A stretch of 64,000 nucleotides of DNA from Glandiceps talaboti (Eukaryota > Hemichordata > Enteropneusta > Spengelidae), in the NCBI RefSeq assembly GCF_964340395.1, contig NC_135559.1:13550759-13614758 (forward strand), given 5' to 3'. Below the pieces are notes generated by a model. That model did not search any database. It worked only from the letters and a program-made list of their open reading frames with translations, and was not told where the DNA came from. How positions within the stretch are numbered: position 1 is the first letter of the stretch; every line of letters begins with the position of its first letter. The position numbers and the translations under genes were made by a program. Below, piece after piece: positions 22,716-56,561 of this stretch.

Positions 22716-22782
22716 CTTCTGGATAAGGGCTTTTTTCTCCGTCCCACCTTCCCCATTGAAGTTCAGAAATCCAAACAGCCGA
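22716..22782 (-). CDS. KDM6A: KDM6A-like exon 2
   Basis: This 67-nt exon follows a good acceptor (TTTTCCTTGCAG on the minus strand) and ends in phase 0 at AAG before GTATGG. It encodes S-R-L-F-G-F followed by a Gly-rich linker and K-K-A-L-I-Q-K, the entry to the first TPR helix in the family. In known orthologues the next residues read like V-R-C-Y-E-S-L; I did not find that exon to the left in this window. Confidence 0.82.
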
Positions 22783-22957
22783 CTGCAAGGAAAACACTGA
22801 CATTTAGCATGCTGGAAAATAACAAGATGGAAAACAAACTCAGAGCGAATGGCCAAAATTTTTGTAGATGTTGTCACCTATCGAACTCAGCGAGCAAGTC
22901 CTTTTCCTGTGCTGTGAGACCTGACTTTTCTTCTCCCTGCAGCTGCCCGCTCGCCAT
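22716..22957 (-). CDS. KDM6A: KDM6A/UTX-like histone H3K27 demethylase, first two coding exons (5' partial)
   Basis: The coding segments are complement(22878..22957) and complement(22716..22782), separated by a 95-bp GT-AG intron, and give 49 residues. The ATG at 22957 starts a short acidic leader, and the joined reading frame contains L-T-A-Q-E-K near residues 14-19 and D-S-R-L-F-G-F at 26-32. These match the N-terminal region just before the TPR repeats of KDM6A/UTX as I recall it (L-T-A-E-E-R, then D-S-R-L-F-G-F, then K-A-L-L near K-A-L-I here). The intron splits the Ser codon of D-S-R, and the frame closes only with this splice. The family removes methyl groups from H3K27 in the nucleus within COMPASS-like complexes. 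The TPR repeats, JmjC domain and zinc-binding region are not seen here; a consensus donor at 22715 points to more exons beyond the left edge. The identification rests on about 25 informative residues plus its neighbours. Confidence 0.83.
22878..22957 (-). CDS. KDM6A: KDM6A-like exon 1 (coding part)
   Basis: This is 80 nt of coding sequence from the ATG in the context AAAATGGCGAGC, ending in phase 2 (AG) before a GTGACA donor. It encodes residues 1-26 and the first two bases of Ser27. The leader is short compared with the mammalian protein, whose N-terminus carries an alanine-rich stretch. Confidence 0.8.
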
Positions 22958-24274
22958 TTTCCAAACGCATCTAGCCCAGAATTACGGAGATCAAATAATA
23001 AACTCCAGGTTTGAAGCTCATGGTGCAAAATCGCGACACGGATTTGGCGTTAATTCCCAAAGAACTTGTGGGTCCACAAGAAAAGTTGGTAGATGACACG
23101 AGCCACCTCACGCCGTACAACTGTATTGCCCTAAAACGTGTCCAATCAACGTCCTTTTCAGTAATCACATGATTCAGCCAACTTTCGCGCAGAATTTCAG
23201 TTCCGAGTTGCGCAGATTATCAAAACAATGTGGGTACGGGTCCAATTTTCGTGTGTTGCAGCTTGGTGAAATCCGAATTATATTATTTGCTTTGTGTGTA
23301 CGTGGGCGATTGCTAGTACACCTCCAGACCTTGCAGCTGCAAGTATGAATGTCCGGCCAGCGGTTTTATTATTTGTTGTATTATCAAGGGGAATTTGTCC
23401 TCAATGCGGAAATAAACAATACCACTTTATGTGGTCCAATCATTTAGCATGATTTCGTCACATGGTTTAATCGCATGTTTGTAAGTGTAACGCCAAATTA
23501 ATCTCCGTTTGCCGCCAAAACATGGCATATTTATAAACTATTCTACCTAAGACAATCTTTTGGCCCAAACAGTCACATACATTCGCTTTTGGTCATTTAC
23601 GATATTCAACCTGTCGGTCGGTCACAATGAAATCCTTCAACGTTCAAGGGCCTCCATGTGAGGGCGGGTCATTTCATATCAGCGGGGGGGGGGGAAGCCC
23701 ATAATTGAAAGCACAGTTATATTGATAAAAGGAAACCTCGGTGACAAAAAAAATCGTGCGTGGTGTAAGTGTATGATACATGTGTTATCACTACTCTTGT
23801 ACATCATGAACATGTAAATTTATATGCCAATATTCACTTTAATTATAATTTATCTAATCTTACTTAATTATAATTTATTTCACTATATTTTGCATCCCTC
23901 CTTTTTACTAGATCTATACTCAGCTCAGCTCATTTCAATAAGAAATATGTATTTTGTAATGATACAAGAGGATATTGACCCAACACTGTTTTTGTCAAGA
24001 AAAAAACACCAGGCTCTATCTTTGCAGAAGTCACGTAATGGATTGTACGCAAGCCTGGCAAATACTGTCAACACTTTGGACTCTCAGATTTAACATGATA
24101 AATAAACTGATGATTTTTTTTTTACAAAAGTAGTGGTATATTTAAAAAACAGAAAATAATTTTGGAGATATAGTAACCAGGTTATTGAAATGGTGTTAAG
24201 GTATTGTTTGAGATATGATATATGATTTATTGCAATAGGTCTACTGACCAATGTCAGCATACATTGCAAAAACA

Positions 24275-24320
24275 ATACATACATACATACATACATACAT
24301 ACATACATACATACATACAT

Positions 24321-24407
<87 letters not shown>

Positions 24408-24408
24408 T
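24275..24408. repeat. Compound (ACAT)n-(AC)n microsatellite
   Basis: About 15 ACAT units pass directly into about 30 AC units, ending with two to three ACAT units. Confidence 0.95.
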
Positions 24409-24636
24409 ACAAAGTATGTATATTTATGTATCAACCCCGGAATCAAATACAATACAATTATGATATGCATTATGCATTGTTATCATGATTTTGTGCATGC
24501 ATGTACATATTAATTTACTACTTTGTTTTAGCACCAAACACTTATTGCAGAAAATCCAAGGACGAAATGTAGTTTTCCTCAGGGATGCAATAAAGATTCT
24601 ATTCTATTCTGTATATATAGACATATAAATCTTTAG

Positions 24637-24764
<128 letters not shown>

Positions 24765-24770
24765 TCATTA

Positions 24771-25077
24771 ATTAAAGTCGATTTCTTCCCCCTGGTGGGG
24801 GGTCACCGACTGTCCTTCTTTCCATGTGGCAATCACATTATTCCATTTCTGCCTGTTCCCATAGTCATTGATGTTTAATCCAATCTGTTTACATTGTCCT
24901 TCCACCATACTCTTCCATGTCAGCTTTGGTCGCCCTCTCCCTCTTTTTCCATCCACCTCCAGATTCCATGCCCTCTACACTCCTTCTCCCTCATCTTTCC
25001 TCAGCACATGTCCACACCATCTCAGAGAGCTACACCTTGCTACCTCCACAATTGACTCACATAGAATCCTTCAATGA
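24771..25077 (-). pseudogene. Non-LTR retrotransposon (LINE) ORF2 C-terminal remnant
   Basis: Read on the minus strand, one frame shows L-R-W-C-G-H-V-L-R-K-D, then after an in-frame TAG, G-K-R-G-R-G-R-P-K-L-T-W followed by a Trp-containing tail and a TAA. L-R-W-x-G-H-V-x-R and G-R-P-x-x-x-W are the usual last landmarks of LINE reverse-transcriptase polyproteins in invertebrates. The internal stop and lack of upstream reverse-transcriptase domain show a dead, 5'-truncated copy. The TAA is followed directly by a TGATGATAT-type tail that runs into the AT microsatellite. Confidence 0.7.
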
Positions 25078-25588
25078 AACAGTCACTTAAAGTTTGCACC
25101 AAGAATGTTTTTTTTTTTTCAAGTTTCCACCTTGGCTTCTGAGTGAAAATATGGAAGGAATTGAAATCCCTTACTTCCATCATCGAAAGAATGAAAATTC
25201 AAAGTATAATATGTTGACATTAACATATATTGAGAACAAATTAGAATTAAATTATGGAATTCATCTTCTGCAAAGTTAAGACTAGTCTAGATGCCAACAA
25301 GACCTTACAGAATCATTCATATGCTGGTATCTCGGGTTGAGAGTAGACGGTCAACATTGTCTGAAATTCTTATTACATAGTAATTTTAACCTGCCCATAT
25401 ATTTACTGTGGTTTTCAGAAAATTAATGACTTCCAATTAAAATCAGGTATATACATAAACAGGGAAAAGGTAGATCAAATTTGTAGCAATATTTGACTGG
25501 AAACAATTTATAACAAAAAAGGTAGGACAGCTGGAATCCCCCCCTGTCATAGTTATTGGGCATTTCCCTTATTTTGGTCAACGTCAAA

Positions 25589-25607
25589 ATGGCGGAAGGC
25601 GAACAAG
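25589..25607 (+). CDS. FUNDC1: Candidate FUNDC1 exon 1 (M-A-E-G-E-Q + 1 nt)
   Basis: The sequence AAAATGGCGGAAGGCGAACA leads into a donor (AAG, then GTTTGT at 25608). Nineteen coding bases end in phase 1, exactly what exon 2 needs, since exon 2 starts with the last two bases of an Asp codon. The result is a short acidic leader ahead of D-D-E-H. It lies 2.6 kb from the divergent KDM6A start. The weak point is that so short an exon could match by chance; transcript data would settle it. Confidence 0.5.
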
Positions 25608-28600
25608 GTTTGTGTGCATTAGATATATGTCGTCAGAATATAATTTCAGTGTTATTATTACTCATAATGGTATCAGCAAAGATCGCAGATTCGTCTCATT
25701 TCAAACAGGTTGCCTGAAATCGTTCAGTTTGACCTCGCTGAAACATTGTTACACAGTACACAGTATAATCGAGTCGGTTTCCTGTCTGGACAGGAAGTTG
25801 ATTTGTTCATCCCCATAACACACTTTTACAAATGTAATACAGTACTTTAAGTTAAACACGTGCAGTTCTTCAAAGGATGTGGTCTTGGCATATGTGATTT
25901 CTCGAATTATGAGATTGCATAATTGGGGGGGGGGGGTGTACCCTTACTTACATTTGCAAACCTCAAATTGAATTTTGAGAAAATAATGTTTTCAGTTTCA
26001 CAAATTTTTTACTGACAAACTGAAGAACGAGGTTGATCTTGAGTTTCTAGTGCAAAATTGAAGAAAAGGAGATTATTATCTCAAGAATAAAAATCCGCTT
26101 GAATATATGCATGTACAAAATCTAACATAATATACTATTATATTGTTTTTTCATAATATCATTATGAAATTTTCTATTTTCAACATTACACTACTTATCC
26201 AAGGCATCCTATTCAAGTGTAATGTATTTAGTTTTATCACTCGGGATGTCTGTAAGCAATACCTCAATATGAGCTTTTTTGCATGGGAGTCAGAAAATAC
26301 TACTGCATGCTCAAGATGACATGATCGACGCACTGTATAATGCATGAAAGCATACAACAATTGAGGCACATGAGCGCCTAGTAACATTCATACTCAAACC
26401 AGGTCAAATTGACAGGTTGTCAAGGGCAACATGGTATTAAATCTCATATATATATAGACTTAAAGATTCATTACTAAGTTTGTGCTCAGTATAAGGCCAG
26501 GTTTAATTGTCAATGTCACTTATGTATAGGGAGAGCAATTGTAGAAGACTTATTGATTTACAATAACGGTGACTTTGTCAGTCTAAATATCGAAACTGTA
26601 ATATTTTCATTTGTAATATGGGCATATTGGTAATATCATAAGTATAGGCAAAGCCCATACGCTCGCACAGGGTAGATTCATTTGTGACCGGCTGCCGACA
26701 CGATGATAATTTGTAGATAGCACCCTTCGCATGGAGAATGCGCATAACATATAGAATCTTGGGATTTGTTGTTTTTACTTTAATCAACACTATTGGCCCT
26801 TTACCAGGTGTACACAAAGACAAGCTATTGTCAACCAATGATTAAAGAGTCTTGGGATTTGTTGTTTTTACTTTAATCAACACTATTGGCCCTTTACCAG
26901 GTGTTCACAAAGACAAGCTATGGTCAACCAATGATTAAAGAGTCTTGGGATTTGTTGTTTTTACTTTAATCAACACTATTGGCCCTTTACCAGGTGTACA
27001 CTAGCAAAGACAAGCTATGTCAACCAATGATTAAAGAGTCTTGGGATTTGTTGTTTTTACTTTATTCAACACTATTGGCCCTTTACCAGGTGTACACTAT
27101 TAAAGCTAGCCAGTCAATGAACTTGTCAAACAGTCGTGTTGATTTGTTGTTTTTGTTTATCACTATTGGACTTTTACCAGATGTACACTGGGCTAGCTAG
27201 GGTCAATGATTCATTGAACTTGTCAAAGAGTGATGTAGCCTAGATTAGTCATTGGCTTTCAAATCTAGCGATCCCTCCAAGTTGGAATAAGATCTTCAGA
27301 TTTAAAAGCCACCAGATAGGCTCTAGACTAAGAGTCATGGTGATTTGTTGTTTTTCTTTATTACTATTGGCCCTTTACCAGGTGTACACTGAGGCTAGCA
27401 GGTCAATGAACTTGTCAAAGAGTCATGGTGATTTGTTGTTTACCTTTAATGACTATAGTGGCCAGGTGTACACCAGAACTGCTATCAACCTAAATGCAAA
27501 TTTGTGTTTCTTGAAGGTTGTTTTCGATTGGCTTATTCTTATCAAAGGGACCCCAGCAACCAATCAGAGAGTTAACCTGAAGTATGTAATCTACCAATCA
27601 CTAACTATGTTATTAGTGATGTTGGTTAAAGGTGATTCAAAATGCTCACATTCACTATCGCTAATTTGCTAGACGACATGTTTGTGAAATGCATTCTGGT
27701 TTTAAAACTTTTCAAAAGCGTCTGCAAACACCTTAAAATGACCCTTTTTCAGTCACTTCCCTTCGGATTTACTTCGAGAGTTTTCGGGTATTTCCGGTCC
27801 CACCTAGGCCACGGGATTTTATGACGTCATAAGGGGTATACGTTAGCACTAAGACTATGACGAGCGTAGTCACTAGGTGAATAAAACTCAACAGCATTGT
27901 GAAAAAATACATTGCTAGTGGTTGTAACAGACATCAGTAAACAAAAACTACACTCTACATGTCTTATTAACCAACATTTACCGATATTTACTCACATTTT
28001 CTCCACTAATTGGCAGTGTCTGTGGGTATAAATGCTAAAATATTATCTCCCCATATTATGGCAAAATAAATCAAAACGGCTCGACTACAGTGTAGATATA
28101 CATAAACACTTGTAATGTCGGTCGCGTGTTTCAATTTATTTATCTGATTTTTTTTATTATTTGCCGAGGAGAAGCATTACAATATCTTCGACATGCATGG
28201 CGTCGACAGCATATTTTAGCCCACTATACTCACTGATGTCGCCTTTTGAACGGCGCATTTAGCAACAAAGTAAACATATTTATCTTGAATAAATAAACTA
28301 GCTATTAGATTGCCATATTATCAGCAATAAAATTGTAAAGAATTGAGGAAATTTCGTGAGTTTAGTGTTGTCATTTACATGACTTTAGCAACTCGTCTGG
28401 AAGAAAACTTGTATGGTTTCCCTTGTTGCGATATCACTTAATTTAATGCAACAAGCCTATTTAATATTCATTAGAAGAATTTTGTAACGAATCATGGTAT
28501 TCGAAGTATACAGTTTAGGAAACCAACAAATCAAATATCGCGATGTGTTAATGATATTAAATATGATTGGACAATATTGACGTCGGCAATCAAGGTCGTG

Positions 28601-31544
28601 ACCCCAGCACATGGTTATGAAAGAAAGCCTGCAACTAGATACTTAGCCACGTCCGGTCCAATTTCTCAGGGTTTGTTTTGAAGTTAGAGACGTTATTTCT
28701 GTACAACTTGAAGAATTTTACAATATATCTGATTGATAAATATGGATTACATCAACACGTGGATAAATTTAACCCGACACGAATGTGCGCTGTGCTCTCC
28801 CGATTCCATACGTACATTGTACATACACTGCTTCAACTTTAATCGGCGGAACTATCCTAGTATAAGCTTACTGCCGCGGCCGCGGTGACTGCACAAAACT
28901 TGACAACACTACCCCTCTACCGATATATAATAATCACCTGTATACCGTGATAAAAACAAGCAATAATTCGAGTCCCCAACAAGTCGATGAGACCTCAGTA
29001 CTTCTGTTCATTCCGATCCAAATGCGAGTATCTTAGGTTTTATATGGGTTTCAGACTCGGACTAGAGTATTACGCCCTAGACAATAATAGATGTAAACTT
29101 GTGTTCACAAGCCAAACATGTGACAATACAAGACCACAACGAAAACTGTGAAAAATTTACAGGTCACAGTTCCATTTACATGATGCAATGACTCGGAGCG
29201 TGCTTCCTTATGCTCCGAGCAACTTGAATCGAATCAATTAGTGTATTATGGGACCAACAAATATATTGTGGCACATGTCCCGATACACCTTCTTGAAGTT
29301 TCCCATTGGTATTCTAATAGCTAGTATATTTATTCGAGATGAAATATGTTTACGTTGTTGTTAAATGCACTGTTCAAAAGGCAACGCGAGTACGATTAGG
29401 CTAAAATATGCCGTCCTTGGCCCGGGGATGCCGTCAAAACGTCACGACGGTATCGTATTGCTTCTTATCGGCAAATAATAAAAAATCAGATAAATAAAAG
29501 TCAATGAATGTGAAACACGCGACATTACAAGTGTTTATATATAACTAGTCGAGCCGTTTTGATTTATTTTGCCATAATATGGGGAGATAATATTTTAGCA
29601 TTTATACCCACAGACACTGCCAATTAGTGAGAAAATGTGAGTAAATATCGGTAAATGTTGGTTAATAAGACATGTAGAATGTAGTTTTTGTTTACTGATG
29701 TCTGTTACAACCACTAGCAATGTATTTTTTCACAATGCTGTTGAGTTTTATTCACCTAGTGACTACGCTCGTCATAGTCTTAGTGCTAACGTATACCCCT
29801 TATGACGTCATAAAATCCCGTGGTCTAGGTGGGACCGGAAATACCCGAAAACTCTCGAAGTAAATCCGAAGGGAAGTGACTGAAAAAGGGTCATTTTAAG
29901 GTGTTTGCAGACGCTTTTGAAAAGTTTTAAAACCAGAATGCATTTCACAAACATGTCGTCTAGCAAATTAGCGATAGTGAATGTGAGCATTTTGAATCAC
30001 CTTTAATGGTCACCTGTAAAATTAAAATATGACATCTTGTGAGATGTTTTGCATGTATTATTTTCATCTGTTTTCAAAATAATTTTCACAAGCTGTGTGT
30101 TTATACAAAGATGTTAGATCGTTCTTATATCAGACAAGTTGTCACTTCTGTAACAATATATAACCAGGTGTATAAATAGTAATATGCAAATATTATGTAA
30201 ATTATGTAACCTTATATGCAAATTACTGACTTGCAAGCATATGGCAGCATGGTATTTGAGTTCACTATCTTCTTGATAAATTATACTGATCACATCATAG
30301 TTTGATTATATCACTAAGGTGAAATTAGATTTCTAATGATGATTTTTTTTTTAAATGAATATATTTTGAAGAATTAGGAGACTTAAAAAAAAATCCCCCA
30401 ATTGATGGTGCCAATCTAGAAAGACTATGATATATTTATACCATGCATAGGCCAAAATATGGAATATATACTAGATGGTTGTTGTACGTCATGACAACGC
30501 GTGTTTATGTAACTAGTTCTGCTGTGTTCGAAATAATAGTCAAAACGTTCCAAATTGCTATTACTTTCCATTACTTGACATTACTGACACTGGTATAATT
30601 ACGTTATTTTCCAATATTTTGCTTGTGACCTAATGGTTGTCAATACTGTCTAGCGACTGGTATTTACAAAGCCCCTTAGGTCACTCGTATTTTCCTTGGC
30701 TGAACGAAGAAAAATGTTGGAGAATAACATCTAATTAACGATAAGGTAATAGGCTTGGTAAAGTTCAGCTGATTTTGTGTTATTTCCTTCCAGAAAATAA
30801 TTAAGTTGCAATTGTTGATTTACATGCCACTTCCACCAAATTTTCAATTTTCTGTTGTAAAAACATCACTCACCATATTCCCAATGTGAGTGGCGCCCTC
30901 TGTGTCAGCATCCATCATGATGAGACTGCAGGGTGTAGGCTTCCTTCTATGACCTCTAACCTTTATCTTTTTTTCTGTCAAGACTATATAACAAGCGAGA
31001 CAATATCACAGTATATAGTATTTTACCCACAAGTCTCTCTGATTTTTGTTGTTGAACATACTATCCTTGCAGTCAGACGAATCTCAGACAAATACAAGTT
31101 TTTGTAAAAACATTTTTGAAATTTTTAATAGAAGCATAGAATTATAGAATTGCAAACATGAGTTTTTGAATACTCATTTTCATCAGTTCTGATATCAAAG
31201 GTTTATTGTTGAATTCGTAGAAGATACTAGTACAAAATTCATAAATTTGTCGATACTTTCTTGAAAGACATGCAGAGTATTTGCTAGGAAACTAAGGAAA
31301 ATATATACATCTGATCTATTAACCGTGTTCAGACACACACAGTTACACTGGCGCTGCACCGGCTTATTTAGTTACAACTGAATGCTTTCAAGCTACCATG
31401 TTTGCATCTCACTCACCACCGTACATAGTCTTAGGGAAGCATAAGACAAGCCAAATTGCAGGAATAGAATAAAATGGTCGGAGAAACCAAAATATAGAAG
31501 AAGTGTAGTGGGTTTTTCATGCAGTGCATTTCAGATTCAGAATA

Positions 31545-31635
<91 letters not shown>

Positions 31636-34600
31636 GGGGATTATAGTGCATGGAGGATATAGGGTTTTTGGTATGAGGTACAATAATCTTATGCAAATAT
31701 TTGCAATTAATGTGATTAGGTAGTTGATCTAATAATAGGATTAACTGATTTCAATAGGTTTATGATTCCTAAAGACAATCAAATTTAATTGAACACCTGG
31801 GTCCTAGAAAAACCAAAAAATTGTGTGGTTTTGAATGGTGTACCTATATACTCTGATTCTTAGCTTGAACAGTGTGTTCCGTTCCAATGGTGAAAATGAT
31901 AACTTATACTGGTATAATGTTCTGTTCCAATGGTGAACTTTTCACAAAGATAGCGTGGACTATGTGGTTCCATTCCATGGTGTATTTTTCAAAAAAAATC
32001 ATTTATACTGTGTGATTTCATTCTAATGATTGTGTGGTTTGGTTCCAGTGGGGAACTTTTCAGAAACATATTATTGGATAGTTTTAAAATGTATTTTTAA
32101 GTTCAGTTGCTGATTTTCAAAATGATTCTTTTTATGTTTGACTTTTGTACTTGCTGAAGCTTGTGTGATCACACCTAGTGATCAAACCCTACCACTATCC
32201 ACACATTTGAAATACAATTCGTTGTCAAATGATTCAGTGATTATTTTTCTATTATCTCTCTCTCCACCATTTAGTCAAATGCCTTTCTCTCTCATGACAT
32301 ACCATTCTTACCACCAACAGTAGTAGTTTAATGAAATGTTGATATAAATATGATGACAGTATTGCATCCTCACGTGACTTATTTAAGGTTGCGTTTGTAG
32401 TAAACTGAACAAAGTAACCAATTACAACTGCCTGTCAGTGTGTGATGGATTACTACTGATATGCACTGTTCACACTTTCCCCAGCAGCAGATTTAGCTAG
32501 ATTTTCAATAGAATTTGTCGCTTTGACCATAGACCCTCCACCAACAGAGGGTCTATGATTTGACTATACATGGAGAGAGAGAGATCGTAAAAAAGAAGCC
32601 CACATGTATAGTTTCTAGACTAATGGAAAGAAACTGCCCCTTCAACGCCATATGTTGTTTGTTACACTCGTTAAGATTTTACCCTGAATAAAAATATGTT
32701 ATAATAATAATATTAACAGTAAAATATGGAAAGTTACAGGCCTTAAAGGTGAGAAGCGTAGAAAAAGAAGGTATTATCATGAGTCATGGTTTGTCATATT
32801 GTATAACTAGATATTGATAGCATTTGGTGTTTGCTGTAACCGTAGGCCAAATATGTAATAAATAGTGTGTTTCCGATAACATGACTAACTACAAGTTTGA
32901 GGCCCCCCCCCCCCCCAAAAAAAGTAAGGCCTAAAAAAATTGTTTGGTTTCTGTTACCCAACCCCACCTAGTTTTTCACGCCGACCCTAAACATTTGTTT
33001 ACATATTTAAGGAAAAAATAATAAAATTTTTGCAATTGTGAAGTTTTACACACAAAAAAGTGCATGCGAAAACTGACATCAACTGTTCTAATAAAACTGT
33101 TCTTCCAATCTGTAATGGTTGTACATCTGATGAGAAGTAACCATATGATAAACAATGGTAACTAACTGAACTAGATACTCACATATGAAAAAACAAATAC
33201 ATGTATATATAAAAAAATAGAATAAAAAATCTACCTACCCCACCTATTCTAAAATTGAGCATAATCGGAACCACACAATTTTTTTTGTTAGGCTTAAAAT
33301 GGTAACAATTTACCTCTATTCCCATGTACTACATCTTCATGGCTTTGCCTTGTCTTTGGTCACTTTTTTAAAAAAAATCATATCCCAGTCAGAAAAACCA
33401 GGTCTTAGACTCTAACAGTACAGTCTGCATAACGTGTTCGTCTACTTAACTTATAATTGTCTTCATTTACTTATTTTACACCTCATCAAACTCTCACAGA
33501 AGTATTGCGACCAACGAGAATCTTAATCTTGGGGTCGAAGTAATTTTTAGAAAATCAAAGTACAATAACATAACATTCCAACTTACTTACCCTATTTTCG
33601 AAATCATATCAGAAACAAACATTTTTTTTTAATTTTGCTTTCGACAAAATCAAAATTTATGTTTTCTGTCCCCAGTAAATAAAATTGAAGTTGCTTATTT
33701 ATTTTAATGTACTGTAAACATGGAAATTTTAGCTAAAGTCTTATTTTTGATTATGTACCCTGGACTACTGTAAATAAACAAACACAAGTAAAAATATGCA
33801 CTATAAAACGCTAAAAATAAAAATTTCGAATTATCTTGCAATCTTTGCAGGATTAGATGTATTATTTGTTAATTTCATAACAGTTTAGAGCGTTGCCATG
33901 GTTTCACCATCACAACTTAAGTGCTTAAAGGTGAGATGGGCAAAGATGAATATGTTAATTAGTGTATATTTTTAGCTGTTATCTGTTACTCACTGATTCC
34001 ATTGAAGGCCATTGATGCGAGGACACTGAGTCAGTAATATTGTAATATTAATACAGTCATGGAAAAACAGGACCAAAATGGTATTTATTTTATTTATGTA
34101 TCGATATTTTTTGTTGGCAGAATTAATGGATTATGTATGTCCAATGTGGTATACTTGTAATACATGTGTTATATCATCACAGAGTAAGGAAAATTGGGAA
34201 ATACTGATACAGGGTATCATAACATCTGAGCATGGTTTTTATAACTGATTGGAAACCAGGCAGTGCTAAGGTTTGTGAATGTAATGTTAACAGAGTAGGG
34301 AATCTAGTAAAATTACATAGATTCATTGCCATTCCGTTTGGTGCGGAGTCTTGTAGGGGAATTCGGGTAGACTTTACTTGCAAACAATATGGGGGTTAGG
34401 GGTGGAGGGGTTGGGGTTGGGGTTGGGGTTGACAAGCTGATTTTATCTCCTATAATTGCCTATGACATTACAGGTAAAACATTATTGCACTTTGACAAGG
34501 CCACAAATTTAACTATGCTTCAGTCATCGTCAGATTTAGCCAGGTGAACTGTTTCAACTAAAATTTTCTATTGATTTCCATATGTTTAAAGATTCACCTT

Positions 34601-37600
34601 ATAAATTTGGTAGTCTAGATACAATGTTTAGTAGTCTATGTGTCCTAGTGCTAATTTGGTAGTCTAGATACAATGTTTAGTAGTCTATGTGCCCTGGACT
34701 ACTGCTAATTCGGTAGTCTAGATACAATGTTTAGTAGTCTATGTGTCCTGGACTACTGCTAATTTGGTAGTCAAGATACAATGTTTAGTAGTCTATGAGT
34801 CCTGGACTACTGCTAATTTGGTAGTCTAGATACAAAGTTTAGTAGTCTATGTGTCCTGTACTACTGCTAATTTGGTGGTCTTGATACAATGTTTAGTAGT
34901 CTATGTACCCTGGACTACTGCTAATTTGGTAGTCTAGATACAATGTTTAGTAGTCTATGTGTCCTGTACTACTGCTAATTTGGTGGTCTAGATACAATGT
35001 TTAGTAGTCTATGTACCCTGCTGTTGCTGTTTTTGACAAACATATGTAATAATAACAGAACCCTGACATGTGAATACAGGTGTGTTATATGCCCTCATCG
35101 TTACGGTGACTATACCCGGTACCACTTGCTACAGTTAAGTACAGCTACATAGAACATATACCACAAGCTCTTGTGCAAATACATGGAGTACAAGCCACAC
35201 TTACATTCACGCATCATCATGGGATTCTCTGTCATAGGTCTAAGGTACAAGCAGATTTGATAGCGTGTTAGGCATTGTGACAGACGAGAGTACTTCTATG
35301 TACAAACACATAATTTCACCACTTGACTCACAGTCAGTAAAGAACTCTGTCAATAGCAGATTACCACTCATTCATATAAATACACACACACAATGGAATT
35401 CATGGACTGACAGATAAAAAATACACAGATGAATACTTGAATGCATTTCATATTGTTTAGTTTATTGCATGAAAGACCACAGACCCAGAAAGCATACAAA
35501 ATATACAAAAGAAAAAAATACAAAACAACTGGTGAAGAGACTCAAAGACTTTTAAGTTACCTACTATAAATACTGCCGATAGCTGTATGACAGATGTTTT
35601 ACTGTTATTCTCCAATATATTTCAGCCAAGGAAAATACTCGTGACCTAAGGGACCCTTGTCGACGAGTAGTGACAACCTTTAGGTCACGAGTATTTTCTG
35701 GCTAACTGAAAGAAAATATTGGGGAATAATATAATTATGCCATTGTCAGTAATAATATGAGTAAAAAATCAGGGAAAGCACCGTAATGGCAATTTTGAGC
35801 GTTTTGACTCATATTTCGAACACAGCAGAACCAATGACGTGCACATGCGCTGTGTGACATGTGCACATATTGTTGTGATGTAGAACGACCAGAGTATATA
35901 TTCCATATTTTTTGTTAAACCTGGTTCATGCATGCTATACATATCTTTTGTATTCAGTGTTTTTTCGTCAATATTGTAGTTATAGTGTTGAAGCCCCTGA
36001 TGAAACACAACTTTATGGGATGTTAAAAAATCATTTGTGTGCTCATTTATTGCTACTATTTGTTTGTATTCTGACATTTGCTTTGATGTAATCAAATAGT
36101 ATGTGTACTTTTGTATGTATTCTGATATTTGCTTCAGTGTAACCAAATAGTATGTGTAATGTGAAACACTGGATAAGGCCATAAGGTGCTGGTACTGAGC
36201 ACATAAAAAAAATTCAAGCAAGGAAAATATCAGGGCTACTGTAATCAAGCACATTTTTTAGTGCTTTTTGTAACATTTTCATTTCAAAATGGCTGCCAAG
36301 TTTCCAAAAGTGTGTAGAAAGATAAAGCAGGCACTCTTTTAAAAACTACAAAGTGAATTAACATCTAGATCTTTTACGTTCTCATGAACAACTTGGTTTA
36401 TACTTTCATACAGCAGAATTGGAAAATTTTTGAGGGACGATCGCACAATTTCTTCCAAGCTCAATAAATGAACTTTGGTTATTTAAGAATTGAGTGGTTC
36501 TGACATCAGAGTGATTGCTGAGTTTCAGTTAAGCACTTCTGACTAAATTTCAAAAACTTTCACAACTGCCAGAACTGGAACATGTTTTGTATTTACTGCT
36601 GAGATGTTGATTAGTTGATTAAAATTTTTACTTCTAATGTGAGATATAGTACTGGGTTTCTGGTTAGTATTTTGATGTGTTTGCAATGTTTTTACATAAT
36701 GTAATAGCTAGATCATATTAATTCTATTTTCACCATGGTTTTTACGTCATTTTTCACACTTGTGAATATTTGTTATGGGGAGAAGGAACGGGTACGTCTA
36801 AACAAACAAGAATAATTTATTGAGTTTGTGTGACATCGTATGATTGTCCCCAAAGCATTTTGTCAGTGGTTTGTCATATTTTGTTGTTAATTTTTACTTT
36901 TGGTAGACATTTCACAGTATTGACATACTTTTCATCTGTTTATCCTTAGACGATGAACATTTTGAAATTCTTGACCTGACAAGGGAAAGACGTCATGAAT
37001 TGATAGAGAAAGTCTTGGGAGATGTGACGACGAAAGGAGCTGTCACACAACTTGCCATTGGTGGTGCTACAGGATGGTACGTATTACAACTGCTGACATT
37101 AGACCATGGACAAACGAAACCTTATAGTATTACAAACAGGGAAAGTAAACAAATGAATTGGATTGATAACACTTGTCACAGCATATTGGAAGTACAGAGA
37201 GACTTGTATTGCATGTCATCATTTGATAAGAACAGTTTTATGGCCTCTTTACATAATAGTTCACAAGTTCATGAAGAAATTTCCAGTTACCCTGGCATTT
37301 CATGTGCACATAAAGAACAATTTTCATAACATGTTCAGTGATATGATGCCTTACAGGAAAATATCTTCACACAGCTTTTACAAAACTTTAACATTTTGAT
37401 TTTGGCAGGGTGTCAGGATATGTCTTCCAAAAAGTTGGAAGAGCAGCGGCAACAGCAGTAGGTGGTGGACTTCTACTCCTTAGGGTATGTAGTTGAAGAT
37501 CTTCTGTTAAACTGCTTGAAATGTTGTACAGTAATGATACAATCTATTGACATTGCATATAACGAAAGTTACCAAACACACACATTTGTGAGTGTCGCCT

Positions 37601-42716: not shown

Positions 42717-43078
42717 TTAGGCCTTTAAAGTTTGGTTCCGGTTACCTGACCCCCACCTAGTTTTTTTACCGACGGCCATTTTTACGTATTTGAGAGAAAA
42801 AAAATAAAATCGCAAAAAATTGTGAAGTCTCGTGAGAAACTGACATCAACTTAAAAAGACAATATGAAACTGTTCTTCCAATCTGTAATGGCTGTATATC
42901 TGATGGGGAAAAACCAATAACACAGAGACCATATGGAAAACAATGGAAAACATAACTACCTGAACTAGACACTCACACATGAAAAAAAGTCTACCTACTA
43001 TTCTGAAATTGAACTATTCTGAAATTGTCTATTCTGAAATTGAACGTAATCGGAACCACACAATTATTTTTAGGCCTT
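42717..43078. mobile_element. GGCCT-ended MITE family, copy 4
   Basis: TTAGGCCT at the left and AGGCCTTAG at the right. Near the right end a short segment (TATTCTGAAATTG) is repeated three times, an internal expansion not seen in the other copies. Confidence 0.72.
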
Positions 43079-43595: not shown

Positions 43596-43724
43596 CTAAC
43601 AGAATGACCATAATGTCTATTTCTGCACACCAAGTCTTTCTTCCTTACAGGGTTCATAAACTCACATACTACTGGTATGTATACATATGTACCATGGTTT
43701 TGACACACCCCATTCAATCAATTC

Positions 43725-47820: not shown

Positions 47821-49044
47821 AAAATCATTTTTGACAAGAATTGGTCCATCAATGCTACCATACCCAATATGCTACAATGTTTTGTAGCTAGTATTGCTGT
47901 AAAGAGGACAGTGTGTTCCCTGAGAAATCGGGTACAGCAGAACTGACAACTGTGTTCAATTTCAATGACCAAACATGTTTGATAGGAGCAACATTCAACC
48001 AAGTAACTTGGACAAAAACTTAGATAAGTAATATTTGTTCAACTAGTACAATTAATAAACTCCAATGAGCTGATGCAACCAGACTATATACTTAGGCTGG
48101 GTAGTTTGAATTTCACACATATTGTCTATAGTATGGATCTGGTTGCATCACAGTTTATTACTTACACTAGTTTGGCAGAGTTTATTTATGTGAGTTTTTG
48201 TTGATGTAGCCTGGCTGAACATGGCTCTTATCAAACATATTTGAACACTGAAACTGAATAGTGAATACAATTATAATTTCCGCTGTATATGTCAACCTCT
48301 TCACTAACCATAGACAGTGTCTATGCACTCACCTAACCAAAATCAGTGAATTGCACTATATATAGAAGTTTTTGAGTTGATTGTAATATTACTGTAGAAA
48401 ATGTTGAAGGCAGTGTAATTTTTTTCCACAATAGTCTTAACTATGATTTTTGCAGTACACAACATGTGACAACAACTTTGGGCCAAATCGCTGACAGTCT
48501 CTTGTACTACAAGAAGCCCTGTTGCAGAATCTCACATACCTTTCAAACATCTCTGAATTTCACAAGCATATTTTTTACAGGGTTCTGTCTTCTTCTGAGG
48601 CTGTGACATTTTTAGAGTCTTCGTGCATTATTCTTTTCGTTAAATCACCCTAATGAGTCGTGAACACCGATTCACGTGTAGATTCGATGTTATCAGCTGG
48701 GACATATATTTACCGAAGTGTGTTGTGGGAGAAGTTTAAATAGCACTTAAATTTGCGCAAGCGTAGTTCATACCAACAGTGGAGAAACGAAGCATAAAAC
48801 AAACATCATTGTTTACTTCCTGGTTGCTATGCTATGCCTTTTTACGAATAGACAAAGAATTATTTTTCTACGCGTGATAAGTAGTGCAAAATCTTTATTT
48901 CCAAAGATAATCTGTCTTAAGTATTGAAAAAACTATTTTAATTGCTGTATACAGTTTAAATAAATAAAAACGTTAATAGAATAATTTTGGTGCAATATAT
49001 CTGCAAAATTTAAAATCTGCGGATGAATATTTTGCACGACGGAG

Positions 49045-49058
49045 ATCCCGATAGCAAC
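49045..49058. promoter_or_regulatory. Candidate RFX X-box upstream of EFHC2
   Basis: ATCCCGATAGCAAC, about 157 bp before the EFHC2 ATG, has a perfect AGCAAC half-site and a degenerate other half, roughly 10 of 14 positions of the GTTRCCATGGYAAC-type motif. RFX factors commonly drive ciliary genes from X-boxes at this distance. A weaker GTTGCTAT half-site lies near 48823. Confidence 0.35.
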
Positions 49059-49214
49059 CAGTCAACACCGAATCGAACTGAGCAGTGGTTCACTCAGCAA
49101 CTGGACATCATCACTGAGATCCCCATACAACTGAGATACTCTCGATTTCTCTTCGATATCGCGACTAGTTTCGTGCATTACTGAATTTTGGAGGCCAGAC
49201 GTTAGCGACTAAAT

Positions 49215-49256
49215 ATGTCGTTGCCATTTCTACCGGGAAACTCCTTCAATTCCAAA
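49215..49256 (+). CDS. EFHC2: EFHC2 exon 1
   Basis: Fourteen codons from the ATG at 49215 to AAA before GTAAGT (phase 0). The [10 protein letters not shown] motif is the conserved start of EFHC1/EFHC2 proteins, which supports this ATG. Confidence 0.92.
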
Positions 49257-52200
49257 GTAAGTCTCAGTTTACGAACAATTTTTCTCGTGTTTGGAAACCA
49301 CTTCGTGCACATGACAACATCATGGCTGACTATTACGAAGATGATCGAGGGTGGGTCATTGAAAAGATGACAGAGAAACTTTGCAAATCCCAATACATAC
49401 CGCGTCATAATAAGCAATGTGCAGAAGAAAGCCAAGAACGTCATTTTAGTAAATTTAATGGAATATTATTTGGGCATTTATAATGTAGACACAGACAATT
49501 CCTTACCACTGATAATGTTATGTACCATAACCATAGGGATCATACGATTTGTGGTTCAGTATTTATGTCAAGAAATGATTTTGTCATGTGTGCCAAATTA
49601 TTTTGGAAAAACATAAGTAAATGTCCCATCGATTTACTTTCTGCTGCTGTAAATAAACTGTAGACTGAATGTAAAACACTGCCTTGCCCCGGTTGATATG
49701 ATAGGAGATAATATTAGCAACCACAACAATGGCAACATTCATATTATTTTGTTTTGCCTTGCTTTGTTTTGCTTTAAATAGCTGAACATATACAACCAAA
49801 TTACTGTTATTGGGTATAGTGAACTATTGCAAATAAGGAATAGCTGGGAAGGTATAATTTGAATATAATAACTTTCTCTAACTACTGTCTGTTTGTAGGT
49901 ATATGTGTAGTTACTATGTTATGGTTAGAAACATTACAATTCTGTTCTCCTAAAAATACATTTTCTTTGACATTTCCAGCTTGGACAGGAGAATCACCGC
50001 AAATCCCACCACTTTGACTACACCAATGATGTATCTATGTTAGTTGGTGAACATAAACCAGGTATTGGTGGACAGAGACTTCTAGGCCAGAAACCCAAAC
50101 CAAGACATAGCAACATCCCTAGGGGTGAAGGCAACGCTGCACCAGCATGGGTTGCCTTTGACAGACAAGTGTTGTGTTTTGATGGCTACTTCCAAGAAGC
50201 TGTCCATGAGAAGAGGGAAGAACAGTTCAGGATAAGGAAATGTAGAGTTTATTTCTATTTAGAAGATGACTCTATCCAGGTGACAGAACCACAAGTAAAG
50301 AATAGTGGTATCCCACAAGGTATGTTGTCAAATTTATAGAGTTCAGTTATAACATATAAATAGTTATAATTTTCTTGTAATCTAATAAATTAATGTGTAA
50401 TCTTATTTTCCAATATCATATTTGATCGTATATAACATGAAACAATGGCTGTCTGATTGGATGGATACTTTTTGTTGAAACACCCCCCCCCCCCCAACTG
50501 ATATCGAGAAGGTATACATATGAATTGTAACAAAAAAGTTACAATGTTACATGAACAAAGTGAGACTTGATGCCATACTGTGGCACAGCTGTTGTTGAAA
50601 TTTAACTTTACTTTACTTGAAAGCTCATGGTGAGGTAATCACAGTGGTATGTCATGTATTATTGAAAGGGTTCTTCTCAAGTATGACATCGTGGCTACAT
50701 AATCATATAGACTTCAACAAATGTTCCCCTCCCTCTTTTCCTTAGAGGATGAGAATTGAAATGGAAATATATCGGTTGGTAAGATCATCATCTCATTGGC
50801 ATGGGATACAAAGTATAAGAATGATAACTGAAAATCATTTGATGTGTTGGTTTTAGGTACCCTGATCAGACGCCATCGTATTCCACTGCCTCCACCAAAT
50901 GACGACCAATATTACACAGTAGAAGATTTCAATGTTGGCAAGGAAATCACCTTCTATTCACGTACTTTCAAGATTACAAACTGTGATCAGTTTACATACA
51001 ACTTTCTGCGTAAACTTGGTGTGAGGGTTACCTTACCCGATGATATACCAAGTGATCCTTACACAGAGCATAGGAAAGACGTAAGTATATGAATTAACTG
51101 GTACAATGTACTATAGTTCTTTAAAAGTTGGCAATGAAATGTTAAGAGTAAAATTTATAATACAATGTACCCTAATTGTCTCAGCAGGTGAACAGTTCTT
51201 TTGCCAGGTGTTGTGTACATTTGTCCCACTTTTAAAAATTTTTCTTAGATATTGGGCGTTGTAAAAAGTTCATGTTTGTATAGCTGATGACAGTTACAGT
51301 ATTTTTATCATTACAAATACATGAAATGTATCTCTCCATTGAAAAATATGGGAAATACATTTTTACAAAATTTAATACATAGATACATCAGTGATATTCA
51401 AGACAAAGATCTATTTCAAATTTCAGACCATTTTCCTGTTGAAAGGTGAACATATCAAATACGAAACTTTTAGCCTTTAGTCAATTTTCCAAACCAGTGT
51501 AAAACTATACTTATATAATATTCCCCAATATTATCTGAAGAAAATATGAGTGACCTAAGGAGCCGTGTAACTTTGAGTCACTAGTATATTCTGGCAGAAT
51601 AAAGTAAAATATTGGGGAATAATATAAGCATAATTTATGAAAAATTAGGAAAAAATAAGGTTTTGACATTGATATTTTGAATACTGCAAAATCAGTGATG
51701 TGGACCCAAGTTGCCATGGCATTGAATGACCGGGGTATATAATCCATATTTTCTGTTCAAAGGGAACAACTTGGCTTGAGTATGGTATAATTGATATTTA
51801 TTCTTTCCTTTCAATAGATGGATTTCACTCAGCAACCTCTACGTCCCTATGAAAAAGTTGACACACTCAAACAGTTCTTGGATCATGATCGTCATGTACT
51901 ACGTTTCTACTGTTACTGGGATGACACTGATAATATGTTTGGAGATTCTCGTGAGATGATTCTCCACTATTTCCTCGCTGATGATACCATTGAGATCCGT
52001 GAAGTTATTCCAGCTAATTCTGGTCGCGATGCAGCTCCAATGTTTCTGCGTCGTGCTCGTTTGCCGAAACAAGCACCAGAGTCATTACGACAACCAGGTG
52101 AAGTGACTGGCCGTACAGTGCTGAATGTATTTGGACCCATGGGACAGGGTGGAAGATATATCCTTGATAGTTTGAAGGTGAGTTAATTGTGGCAATCAAG

Positions 52201-55200
52201 CTCAATGCATAGTTTTACAGGATTCCATCTCACCAATTGCTAACTGTCTCTAGTATCTTTTTCAATAAATTGTATTTTGGGAAGAATAGAATATAGCTCA
52301 TATTCCAAAATTTTCATTATTGTTTATATTTGTATAAGTTATAACTCATTTTCATACGACAAAACCTGACGATGTTTGAAAAAAAACAGTGCCCTCTAAG
52401 TCAATTTGATACGCCACTGACACACACAATTTCTATTGACACACCAAAATTTGGTGTTCCACTATCTCTTACTATGTGGTGACCAGTGTGCCCTCTAAGC
52501 TGACACACACAATTTCTAGTGACGCACGAAAATTTGGTGTTCTCCTGTCTCTTACTATGTGGTGACTCACAAAGAAATCCCAGCTTTTCTTATTTTGACT
52601 CACAACAATAAAATTTGGCTATCAGTATCATTAGAGGGCACACTGAACAGAACTAAATATAAATCTATACTAGTAGAACTAGACTGTAAAATACAGTCGT
52701 GTTGTTCAACCCAATCATGCTTCTTAATCGGCGAGTGCTGGCTGATAGCATGACATGAATGTCATATCTTACAGTCTATACTAACTACACATATTCAGTT
52801 TGTTCTTTTTTGTCAGTATGAATATTTTGAAATATAGTCGAGGATAAATGTGACATGATTTGCCAAAGATGTCTGATAAAATTTATGATTATTTTGTTGC
52901 AGACTGGTGCTGTACAAACTGATTATTACAAGGACAGTGATCTTCAAATTGGTTCCGTCCTCAATGTTTGGGGAAGAAAGTACGTCCTGTGTGACTGTGA
53001 TGACTTTACTAAGGAATATTATAGCACCAAGTATGGTCTTGGTAAGTCCAAATACTAAATATACTAAACTTGTCTATTTCTACATTCCTACTGTGCACAT
53101 CACCTCTAAAATTGTTTTTTTGCATTTAAAGTTGTCTGAGTGTGTGTAAAAATATCATGTCACATGACTGAACAACCAAGGTGTCTTCATTTCTACTGTA
53201 ATAGATCTAACAATGAAGGCCACAATAGATTTCTGTTTGATGTCTGTACTACTTACAGTGATGCTCATTCATTCCTAATGTATTCATATTCTTATTTTGT
53301 GTAGCTAACTTTGCTCCAATCAAATACAAGGGTGATCCAATGCCAAGACAAGGCAAACAATGGCCACCATACAATGGATTTGGATCTGAGGAAGACTCAT
53401 TATGTTCATGTATGGGTCTCCTACCTAAGCCACCACGTAGAGACTTTGTCAAATTTATGGAGAGAGACAGGTGAGAACTTTAAGCTAATAAGATCTATGC
53501 ATGTTTCAACTTTGGCCTTTAGTTGAAAGATTCCTTGACGTCTGACAAAACAATGTCCCAAACTACTTTCAGGGGTCATATTTTAACAATTGGTAATCAT
53601 AATTTCCCTGATTAATATATTGCTGTCTCCTGGTGTCTTAAACTTGTTATTGTATGTGTAGAGATTGTGTGTAATTTAACAATTCTGATGTTGTATTCCT
53701 CCGTCAGACATGGACTTGACAGCAACGTGCTGCGATACGTGGCTCGTCTGGATACAACTAAACCCATTGATATGGATAGAAGGTTTATCATTTCATACTT
53801 CTTATCAGATGATACTATTGCTGTATTTGAACCACCACAAAGAAACTCAGGTAGGTAGTTTCCCTCCCATAGTCAGTAAGACAAGCCACGTCAGGACACA
53901 CTCATGCATTGGTCAACCCCTTTCACTACCTAGACCAACTAATGAGGGCAGAACAACACAAGTTATTGTTCAGTGTAATTATAACTATGCTGTCATCCCA
54001 TTAAAGTAGATTTAAACTTTCAGAACTTGTCAAAACAAAGATACTATTTTCATAAATTATGGAATAAACAGAAAAATATATAGTTCAACTTCATGGTGAT
54101 GTACATTCAATATAATTCCATGTATCTGAAATAGAATATTACTGCCTAGGCACATTATAAAAATAACAAACACGTAATTTCCTGGTCCACACCATAACTT
54201 CCCTCTAATATGAGGTCAAATGGTATTGCAGGTACTGAGAATAAGTCAACCTTGTTCTATTTTGACCCGCTAGCATGAGGTAAAATACTATTGCAGGAAT
54301 TGTTTTAAGTTTTGTCATAAATTCAGAGGTGAATGAAATTATGATAATATACAGGCTTCATGTAGAAAGAAACCTATTAGTTATGATATTATTAAACATT
54401 TATGTTATTTGTCACTCATTCATTTACACAATTTTACTAATCACAAACTATTTTTTATCTTGCCAGGTATCATTGGAGGTAAATTCTTGGAGAGAGGTCG
54501 TGTCAAGAAACCTAACCAGCCACGATTCAGCACCACATTATCTGAATACTACCAGGCTTCAGATCTGTATGTTGGTAGTCGAGTTGACTTCAATTGTCAT
54601 ATGTTTATACTTACTGATGCAGATGAATATGCTCTTCGTTACATGGAGAAACAAGCTGGAGAAGTAAGTATTGAACTCTTTCATTTTAATCTTACTCCAA
54701 CCATTTCTATTTTATAGTTATTTATAGCCTACCTGTAGACGTGTAGGACTTAATGGTACAACACTATTTCCACTATCCTAACTGAGTTTAGCAAGTCAGG
54801 TAGTATGAACTATAACTGAATGTACTCTCTGTCTTTTGTTTTATAGTTTCCTGTTGCTGACATTGGAAAAATTATAAGCAAACTGAAGAGCTTTGGACAA
54901 GCTAATGTTGAACACATTGCTGATTTCTTCAGAAGGAATGACCCAGAAAACCAAGGCAAAGTACAGTATGAACAGTTTAGGTAAGGACGAGTCATTTTTA
55001 GGGTATACTGGTATTTGATTATATTGTATGGGTCATATCAAATACTAATTCAATGTTATCACACCGATGTTTAATCGTGTCGCACTGATCTGTGGTCATA
55101 TTCTTTGGGTATGGGATTGTATCACACTGATGTAATTATATCGCACAGAATGATTAGGTATCATTTTCATTTGTTAATTAACTTTTCGATAACAAAGACA

Positions 55201-56561
55201 TCTTGAGTTCCCTACTTAGAAGTAAAATACTAAAAAAAAAAAGACTCAAATTTTAAAGTCGATAAGTCAGTATGCTGGAAGGAGGAGGTACATATTATCA
55301 AATGTAAAATGTCATTTTCAAATAATGTCTGTCCCCCAACTTTATTTAAAACCTGATTCTAAAATTCCATGTTTTGTCTTTTGCCATGAACAGAAACTTA
55401 CTGGTACAGATTGCCAGTAGCAATCTAACAGATCATGAAATCATCACCGTAGCACGTTACTTCAGTGACAGACAAGAAGAGAAGGTGGACCTTAGTGTTC
55501 TTGTGTCTATTGCACAAGAACAGCTCCGTAAAAACAACTTTGAGATCTTTGGTAAATTGATAGAGACTTTCACCCATCAAGACACCGATAGTTCTGGTTA
55601 CATTGATCCTGAACAAATCCGACAGGTCTGCCATGCTTTCCATGTGCCCATCCCAGATGATCTTCTCCGGACAATAATTTCAAGGTAAGGAATGCAGTCC
55701 TCAATAAAATGATCCGTTTCAGTGGAAATATATACCCTAAAAATCATCTGGTGTTAAGACTTACCCAGGCATACACATACATATTTTTCATAGCTCTTGT
55801 TGACTGTAGTGCACTTAGATCAGTTTTCGTAAACATATTTACTTCCATAAAGTTATATTCCTTGCCAGTACAACACAGTAGGAATTCATACAATAAATTA
55901 ATACTAGTATTTCAATCAAGTAAATGTTTTTTGACTGAGAAACAAATTCCATAGTGCTTGTTAGGGCATACAAATAGTAACACACTTAATTGTAACGTTG
56001 GGGTTATCAGTAGCAGAGCAGTTAGTTCATGTGGCCTTTACCACTGCAATCTGGGTTGGAATATTGGTTGATCTGTTTGTACTATAATTTCCACCTGCTT
56101 CAACACACAGGCAATTGGACATTGCACAAGTGGCAACCATATTTGAATTTCCAAATATGATTTACATGTGTGTATATAAATAAAAATATTTCCATTTTTA
56201 ATTTATATTACTTTTTGCAATGTTGACGTTTCATTACATTTTACAGATTGGAAATATATGTTATCAAAGTCATGAATAAATCATTTCAATACATTTATAT
56301 TTAAGTAATATTTACCATATTTTCTAATATATGTATTTTGTTATCTGTCATAGAATGGAGATGAATGAGCAAGGTCAAGTTAACTATGCCAACGTTGTCA
56401 GACTCCTGAACTGGAGAGAGAATCCAATCACTAACGTCAAATACACACAGCCTCCAATGTCACTAGACCAGACGTGGACAGGAAACAAACCTTCTGATGG
56501 TATCCAGTATGTCAACTATGTTGCCCTCATGCAGACACTGTTTGGTGAGGCAAAGCAATAA
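49215..56561 (+). CDS. EFHC2: EFHC2: DM10/EF-hand ciliary microtubule protein, 11 exons, complete
   Basis: Join: 49215..49256, 49980..50319, 50857..51080, 51818..52177, 52903..53041, 53305..53470, 53708..53850, 54467..54663, 54847..54980, 55394..55684, 56354..56561. All introns are GT-AG and phases are consistent; the total is 2,244 nt, 747 residues plus TAA (human EFHC2 749). The N-terminus [12 protein letters not shown] matches the EFHC2 start. Three DM10 domains lie at about 77-190, 229-368 and 430-535, followed by EF-hand-like segments near 569-580, 645-656 and 680-692. Landmarks include [30 protein letters not shown] and the C-terminal L-N-W-R-x-N-P. It resembles EFHC2 much more than EFHC1. 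The family consists of microtubule inner proteins of motile cilia doublets. No frameshift or premature stop was seen. Confidence 0.96.
49980..50319 (+). CDS. EFHC2: EFHC2 exon 2 (start of DM10-1)
   Basis: The acceptor is TTTCCAG and the donor CAAG|GTATGT (phase 1). It encodes residues 15-127, including K-P-G-I-G-G, L-G-Q-K, W-V-A-F-D and most of the first DM10 domain ([10 protein letters not shown]). Confidence 0.96.
50857..51080 (+). CDS. EFHC2: EFHC2 exon 3 (end of DM10-1)
   Basis: The acceptor is GGTTTTAG and the donor GAC|GTAAGT (phase 0). It encodes residues 128-202, with [15 protein letters not shown] and F-L-R-K-L-G-V, closing DM10-1. Confidence 0.96.
51515..51765. repeat. Dispersed hairpin repeat, copy 4 (in EFHC2 intron 3)
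   Basis: ATTCCCCAATATT at 51521 is inverted as AATATTGGGGAAT near 51615, enclosing a GAGTGACCTAAGG segment. It continues with the same flank as copy 3 (GGGGTATATAATCCATATTT). It lies fully within an EFHC2 intron. Confidence 0.6.
51818..52177 (+). CDS. EFHC2: EFHC2 exon 4 (start of DM10-2)
   Basis: The acceptor is TTTCAATAG and the donor AAG|GTGAGT (phase 0), 120 codons. It encodes [22 protein letters not shown] and [12 protein letters not shown] of the second DM10 domain. Confidence 0.96.
52389..52645. mobile_element. hAT-like MITE, two copies in tandem (EFHC2 intron 4)
   Basis: A truncated copy (52389-52483) abuts a fuller one (52484-52645) that starts CAGTGTGCCCTCTAAG and ends TTAGAGGGCACACTG, inverted relative to the 6234 copy. 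The second has lost some interior sequence. Confidence 0.55.
52903..53041 (+). CDS. EFHC2: EFHC2 exon 5 (end of DM10-2)
   Basis: The acceptor is TTTGTTGCAG and the donor G|GTAAGT (phase 1). It encodes Y-Y-K-D-S-D-L, N-V-W-G-R-K and C-D-D-F-T-K-E-Y-Y, the end of DM10-2. Confidence 0.95.
53305..53470 (+). CDS. EFHC2: EFHC2 exon 6 (inter-domain linker)
   Basis: The acceptor is TTTTGTGTAG and the donor CAG|GTGAGA (phase 2). It encodes the linker with [12 protein letters not shown] and [12 protein letters not shown], a highly diagnostic stretch for EFHC2. Confidence 0.95.
53708..53850 (+). CDS. EFHC2: EFHC2 exon 7 (start of DM10-3)
   Basis: The acceptor is CTCCGTCAG and the donor CAG|GTAGGT (phase 1). 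It encodes [24 protein letters not shown] and E-P-P-Q-R-N-S-G of the third DM10 domain. Confidence 0.95.
54467..54663 (+). CDS. EFHC2: EFHC2 exon 8 (end of DM10-3)
   Basis: The acceptor is TCTTGCCAG and the donor GAA|GTAAGT (phase 0). It encodes [21 protein letters not shown] and [12 protein letters not shown], the end of DM10-3. Confidence 0.95.
54847..54980 (+). CDS. EFHC2: EFHC2 exon 9 (first EF-hand-like segment)
   Basis: The acceptor is TTTTATAG and the donor TTTAG|GTAAGG (phase 2). It encodes a helix and the loop D-P-E-N-Q-G-K-V at 569-576. Its last loop position is Gln rather than Glu, so it is a degenerate EF-hand. Confidence 0.93.
55394..55684 (+). CDS. EFHC2: EFHC2 exon 10 (central EF-hand region)
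   Basis: The acceptor is CATGAACAG and the donor AAG|GTAAGG (phase 2). It encodes a helical region and the best EF-hand-like loop of the protein, D-T-D-S-S-G-Y-I-D at 645-653, followed by P-E-Q. Confidence 0.95.
55996..56160 (+). repeat. Possible tRNA-derived SINE fragment in EFHC2 intron 10
   Basis: AGTAGCAGAGCAGTTAGTTC resembles a pol III A box, and GGGTTGGAATATTGG, about 45 bp later, resembles a degraded B box (GGTTCGAATCC). It is too diverged for a functional tRNA. The 3' limit is unclear. Confidence 0.3.
56354..56561 (+). CDS. EFHC2: EFHC2 exon 11 (C-terminus and stop)
   Basis: The acceptor is ATCTGTCATAG; 68 codons run to a TAA at 56559-56561. It contains [13 protein letters not shown] and a final aromatic/Leu-rich segment ending L-F-G-E-A-K-Q, matching the EFHC2 C-terminus. 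Confidence 0.95.

Follow-up and report, generated by a model that had tools for sequence, protein, structure and literature searches.

A stretch of 64,000 bases from the genome of the hemichordate Glandiceps talaboti (C12:13,550,759-13,614,758, in an assembly of 590.4 Mb and 47 contigs; G+C 35% from base counts), here called the window, carries the start of KDM6A (UTX) on the minus strand and FUNDC1 and EFHC2 on the plus strand, and it raises the question of why three unrelated genes should stand together in an arrangement like that of human Xp11.3. The gene models place KDM6A and FUNDC1 in divergent orientation with EFHC2 behind FUNDC1, and the order and strands that an earlier sequence-only reading had proposed for the window are borne out by exon matches, splice sites, domains and spliced models. 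The answer favoured here, with a probability of roughly 0.65, is that KDM6A-FUNDC1-EFHC2 is a remnant of an ancestral animal neighbourhood, kept mainly because breaks are rare. We infer common descent of the arrangement from the identity of the three genes and their order and strands within the window, together with the published human order and linkage in flies, and the neighbourhood looks like a real one, one more ancient animal gene block of a known type.

Three features mark the KDM6A end of the block:

22878-22957, minus strand: KDM6A exon 1, coding part, beginning MASGQL, with its ATG at 22957 and a GT donor (tblastn, frame)
22716-22782, minus strand: KDM6A exon 2, ending ALIQK, with an AG acceptor and a GT donor (tblastn, frame)
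21601-23800, no strand: CpG-rich plateau at the KDM6A start (observed/expected by 400-base windows)

When residues 1 to about 510 of human KDM6A were used as the query, the top two tblastn matches were exons 1 and 2 (E 0.004 each; all others E 2.0 or more). Taken collinearly, the two exons give 49.3 bits, a value reached by none of 200 dinucleotide shuffles (maximum 37.0), and with splice sites and frame also fitting, the earlier assignment of 22716-22957 to a KDM6A-like gene holds. The codon split over the exon 1/2 join yields the D-S-R-L-F-G-F of KDM6A with the frame intact, and the KDM6A-type N-terminus, which ends in this motif and the residues after it, has 24 of 48 aligned residues identical to the human protein; searches with the 49-residue peptide turned up nothing in PDB up to E 10 or in Pfam up to E 1. 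The query of residues 1 to about 510 brought out no TPR exon in 1-22715, and the gene body, if present, must therefore lie outside the window. As the 22.7 kb to the left of exon 2 yielded no further exon, intron 2 is presumed to be long, and would measure at least 22,715 bp if the gene continues beyond the window. Within the plateau, CpG observed/expected was between 0.90 and 1.20 in nine of the ten 400-base windows starting at 21601-23401 and 0.73 in the tenth, compared to a mean of 0.46 for the window as a whole, and the plateau is a probable unmethylated promoter region.

FUNDC1 is represented by five exons, the first of them predicted:

25589-25607, plus strand: predicted FUNDC1 exon 1, encoding MAEGEQ and the first base of a split codon, picked by hand
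36950-37076, plus strand: FUNDC1 exon 2 (tblastn E 2.4e-6)
37409-37484, plus strand: FUNDC1 exon 3 (tblastn E 6.3e-8)
39906-40043, plus strand: FUNDC1 exon 4 (tblastn E 4.7e-8)
40738-40815, plus strand: FUNDC1 exon 5 with the stop codon (tblastn E 3.2e-6)

Here too the tblastn query was the human protein. The spliced model (25589-40815) encodes 145 residues, matches Pfam FUN14 with an E of 2.3e-27 across profile positions 1-92 of 92, and shares 70 identical residues among the 142 aligned with human FUNDC1; its FUN14 domain is accompanied by an N-terminal segment that is acidic and has (E/D)xLDLT at its end. A PDB search with the model found no relatives, the one match being an amylase at E 0.19. 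A whole-genome search for the FUN14 family returned 0 matches from 2 candidates scored despite the presence of FUNDC1, probably because that search runs exon by exon, and is silent on other copies. Exon 1 was picked among 28 ATG-to-donor candidates with a fitting phase, and its donor score of 5.1 puts it at the bottom of the candidate ranking; it was chosen because it shares AAAATGGCG with the KDM6A start and because its product runs naturally into DDEHFEILDLT. Over both strands of the window AAAATGGCG has two sites only, at 25586 (+), the predicted FUNDC1 start, and at 22952 (-), the KDM6A ATG, and the related motif AAGATGGCG occurs once, at 22411 (-), inside KDM6A. Two candidates with better donors than 5.1, one at 23627-23657 (MKSFNVQGPPY, score 7.4) and one at 32881-32923 (score 8.3), were passed over by judgement.

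Between the predicted exon 1 and exon 2 of FUNDC1 lies a foldback or MITE-like (miniature inverted-repeat transposable element-like) element of 2.4 kb at 27626-30006. Its two outer arms (378 and 84 nt) are 99-100% complementary and lie in a roughly 700-bp inverted repeat with 89% identity, and it is CpG-rich, unlike its surroundings. TTAA is present on both flanks, the ends having been judged by eye, and would suggest a piggyBac-type target.

The third gene is complete:

49215-56561, plus strand: EFHC2, 11 exons, 747 aa, open from ATG to stop (56559-56561)
49215-49256, 49980-50319, 50857-51080, 51818-52177, 52903-53041 and 53305-53470, plus strand: EFHC2 exons 1-6 of the spliced model
53708-53850, 54467-54663, 54847-54980, 55394-55684 and 56354-56561, plus strand: EFHC2 exons 7-11 of the spliced model

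The model contains three DM10 stretches (Pfam DM10 E 4e-108) and C-terminal EF-hands. Its best PDB match is sea urchin EFHC2 from the doublet structure 8SNB, with 67.8% identity over 742 aligned positions, compared to 49.2% for the next-best chain, 9cpc_4H (the species of 8SNB and of 7UNG are those given in PMC10973386). Taken by itself, this match would place the genome probably in or near the echinoderms. Of 37 sequences in the PDB sequence search, the five best were all named EFHC2 (799.1-1215.8 bits), with sea urchin EFHC2 at 1215.8 and human EFHC2 at 814.4, whereas the best of the EFHC1 type, sea urchin rib74, reached 456.4 and human EFHC1 433.6. Scores so far above those of the EFHC1 type indicate that the gene is EFHC2 and not EFHC1. 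When 368 of the 747 residues were used to look for relatives of EFHC2, the search gave no pattern match in viral contigs and 11 pattern matches in genome contigs, none of them confirmed.

The start codons of KDM6A and FUNDC1 stand head to head, 2,632 bp apart if the FUNDC1 start is as predicted, FUNDC1 intron 1 would on the same condition be 11,342 bp long, and the EFHC2 start codon lies 8,400 bp past the FUNDC1 stop. No further recognisable gene was found amid the three in a Pfam scan of ten hand-picked open frames, a scan that could miss a gene, none of the frames being located between 8.4 and 35.7 kb; no Pfam domain was above the cut-off in these frames, which lie outside the coding exons (best E 0.038). 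The window contains 0 Rfam families at gathering score and 0 tRNAs. A dispersed repeat of about 200-390 bp is present in four copies of one orientation, 66-88% alike (9455-9822, 15969-16201, 32933-33297 and 42731-43077), one of them inside FUNDC1 intron 1 and another between FUNDC1 and EFHC2.

The head-to-head starts, both of them bearing the only copies of AAAATGGCG in the window, could be taken to mean that a divergent promoter common to KDM6A and FUNDC1 holds the pair together, with EFHC2 as a passenger. A bidirectional promoter pair is usually defined by head-to-head starts within about 1 kb. However, between the KDM6A plateau and the predicted FUNDC1 start there is a CpG-poor gap (observed/expected 0.19-0.65 in eight windows starting at 23,801-25,201), after which the ratio climbs slightly where FUNDC1 is predicted to start (0.74, 0.66), a pattern that looks like two promoters, and the occurrence of AAGATGGCG within KDM6A means that the motif is no proof. 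These points, and those from human and fly given below, make a common promoter highly improbable.

Comparison with other animals rests on published gene lists. In human, EFHC2 and FUNDC1 are on one strand and KDM6A on the opposite one, and the strands of the window agree with this. As to order, the likeness to Xp11.3 claimed in the sequence-only reading does stand: a human deletion table (THP-1) runs CASK, MAOA, MAOB, NDP, EFHC2, FUNDC1, DUSP21, UTX (PMC2729307), which places DUSP21 between FUNDC1 and UTX, so that a common promoter cannot explain the human arrangement. An Xp11.3 duplication report lists DUSP21, FUNDC1 and KDM6A together (PMC5082909), and chicken GGA1 and pig X have FUNDC1, EFHC2, NDP and MAOA in common, KDM6A not being named in the available passage (PMC4831167). 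No description of a KDM6A-FUNDC1-EFHC2 block outside vertebrates was found in the titles and abstract openings listed by the literature searches, in which the paper that came up for the three genes together was a human linkage study.

In Drosophila, Table 6 of PMC4981424 places Utx (CG5640) at 2L 31C7 and CG5676 at 2L 31B1, CG5676 being named as the fly FUNDC1 in PMC10640645. The D. virilis orthologues of both are given within scaffold_12963:13,968,303-14,371,342, an interval of 403 kb and 50 genes, and the list has CG5381, GJ26652 and gus in between (PMC4981424). Nearness of Utx and FUNDC1 in flies would suit a common promoter, but the three intervening genes of the list would not. EFHC2 was not identified in the fly interval, no row available from that table carrying an EFHC label and fly EFHC gene numbers being unchecked. 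Utx and CG5676 also appear in one cluster in PMC6932890, which is not used as support.

Another possibility is that selection keeps the block, cis-regulatory elements of KDM6A or of an unseen developmental neighbour lying inside the introns or spacers of the other genes and making it a genomic regulatory block. The identity of human and window order and the nearness of Utx to FUNDC1 in flies are consistent with this, and there is room in FUNDC1 intron 1 and KDM6A intron 2. KDM6A is, however, a widely expressed chromatin enzyme and not a typical target of such a block, and the 2.4-kb foldback element is tolerated between FUNDC1 exons 1 and 2. Regulatory DNA does exist at the distal end of the block in vertebrates: in pigeon, expression of NDP is raised by a copy-number variant located between EFHC2 and NDP, leaving EFHC2 and other nearby genes unaltered (PMC6050045). 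That site is outside the part of the block covered by the window, and the element acts on NDP, a gene not found in the window. A regulatory block is considered unlikely. A narrower version, in which a regulatory tie between the genes for an H3K27 demethylase and a mitophagy receptor would have kept the divergent KDM6A-FUNDC1 pair together from the bilaterian ancestor onwards, with EFHC2 hosting shared elements, seems decidedly doubtful.

How unusual the inheritance of such a neighbourhood would be can be judged from a survey of 49 genomes, in which 256 new three-gene blocks are assigned to the bilaterian ancestor, compared to 45, 48 or 56 in shuffled genomes, the block rule allowing up to five intervening genes and not requiring order, and bilaterian-ancestor blocks are largely retained in ambulacrarians (PMC8851819). 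A number of points from this survey and from the data above weigh against an ancestral neighbourhood. Vertebrates lost 84% of bilaterian blocks, which makes blocks shared with human uncommon. With 70 inherited blocks, the vertebrate ancestor falls below shuffled genomes (110, 120 and 124), so that under this loose rule (PMC8851819) a vertebrate-shared block is not beyond chance. In the gene lists available the triple is documented in two genomes only, in human with DUSP21 between FUNDC1 and UTX, and the fly pair is near, not adjacent, it being our own reading that the table rows follow the map. In D. pseudoobscura, Utx is assigned to 4:group_2 and CG5676 to the unplaced U:group_3, and linkage is neither supported nor refuted by these placements (PMC4981424). 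For NDP and MAOA, the next genes in human, there was no credible match in the whole window, which includes 7.4 kb to the right of EFHC2 (best E 0.78 and 2.7). Finally, KDM6A is present in the window as its first 49 residues only, on which the assignment rests, and these may belong to a detached 5' KDM6A fragment and not to a whole gene.

The richness of shuffled genomes in blocks, at the bilaterian node and still more at the vertebrate ancestor, also speaks for coincidence, the genes having joined independently in two lineages. Kept order and orientation is, however, far rarer than mere grouping: 0.003-0.04 triples of this order and orientation are expected genome-wide under random order inside linkage groups of 500-2000 genes, a crude null whose inputs are assumed, which ignores human DUSP21 and supposes full scrambling within linkage groups. 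The closeness of the fly pair would then need a second coincidence, with a chance of about 0.3% if the arm is assumed to hold 2,700 genes. Independent joining is considered very unlikely and, the loose rule being indecisive, the case for descent rests on two things, the preserved order with orientation and the pair in flies. Published lists of conserved blocks, of which Irimia 2012 and Simakov 2013 are the usual ones, may already include this block. KDM6A, UTX, FUNDC and EFHC are not named in the main text of PMC8851819, the supplement of which may list the block.

Under the ancestral-neighbourhood reading, the triple would go back at least to the last ancestor that vertebrates share with echinoderm-like deuterostomes, and its KDM6A-FUNDC1 half perhaps as far as the ancestor of bilaterians. 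A comparison of human with an echinoderm-like genome dates the triple to the deuterostome ancestor only. By the criterion of PMC8851819, presence in at least two child clades of Bilateria, the available records show the triple in deuterostomes only and the pair in flies. The earlier claim of linkage over bilaterian time is not borne out for the triple, which is recorded in human and this genome only, and is plausible for KDM6A and FUNDC1 given their closeness in flies. Survival of the block would be due mainly to breaks inside a small neighbourhood being rare and not favoured by selection, in other words to inheritance with slow decay; retention may also owe something to regulation that ties KDM6A to FUNDC1, though this is not needed. 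KDM6A is associated with Kabuki syndrome and with cancer. An ancestral triple would mean that gene order around human KDM6A predates vertebrates, and a KDM6A-FUNDC1 regulatory tie could then be sought in simple laboratory deuterostomes; as it stands, the block is one more data point on the decay of animal gene order.

To the right of EFHC2 the window holds several features of other kinds. Immediately beyond the gene, at 57404-58027, is a minisatellite with a 37 bp unit, 16.9 copies and 94% matches, and at 58960-59082 a perfect (TGT)41 microsatellite, in which a minus-strand open frame reads polyglutamine and is probably non-coding. The stretch 59600-63000 is CpG-rich (observed/expected 0.71-1.66 in 400-base windows), has no recognised gene in the scanned frames, and is perhaps a promoter or a young repeat.

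Set beside known systems, the strands of the window triple match those of human Xp11.3. The three genes also stand in matching order, the human series being EFHC2-FUNDC1-DUSP21-UTX (PMC2729307), but in human DUSP21 is interposed, and neither NDP nor MAOA turned up in the window, which has 7.4 kb to the right of EFHC2. Drosophila Muller B 31B-31E (PMC4981424) resembles the window in that KDM6A and FUNDC1 orthologues are linked at short range, and differs from it in that Utx and CG5676 are not adjacent. The ancient animal microsyntenic blocks of PMC8851819 are alike in consisting of unrelated orthologous genes, here three, a few genes apart across phyla; agreement of order or strand is not required of those blocks, whereas the triple of the window keeps both.

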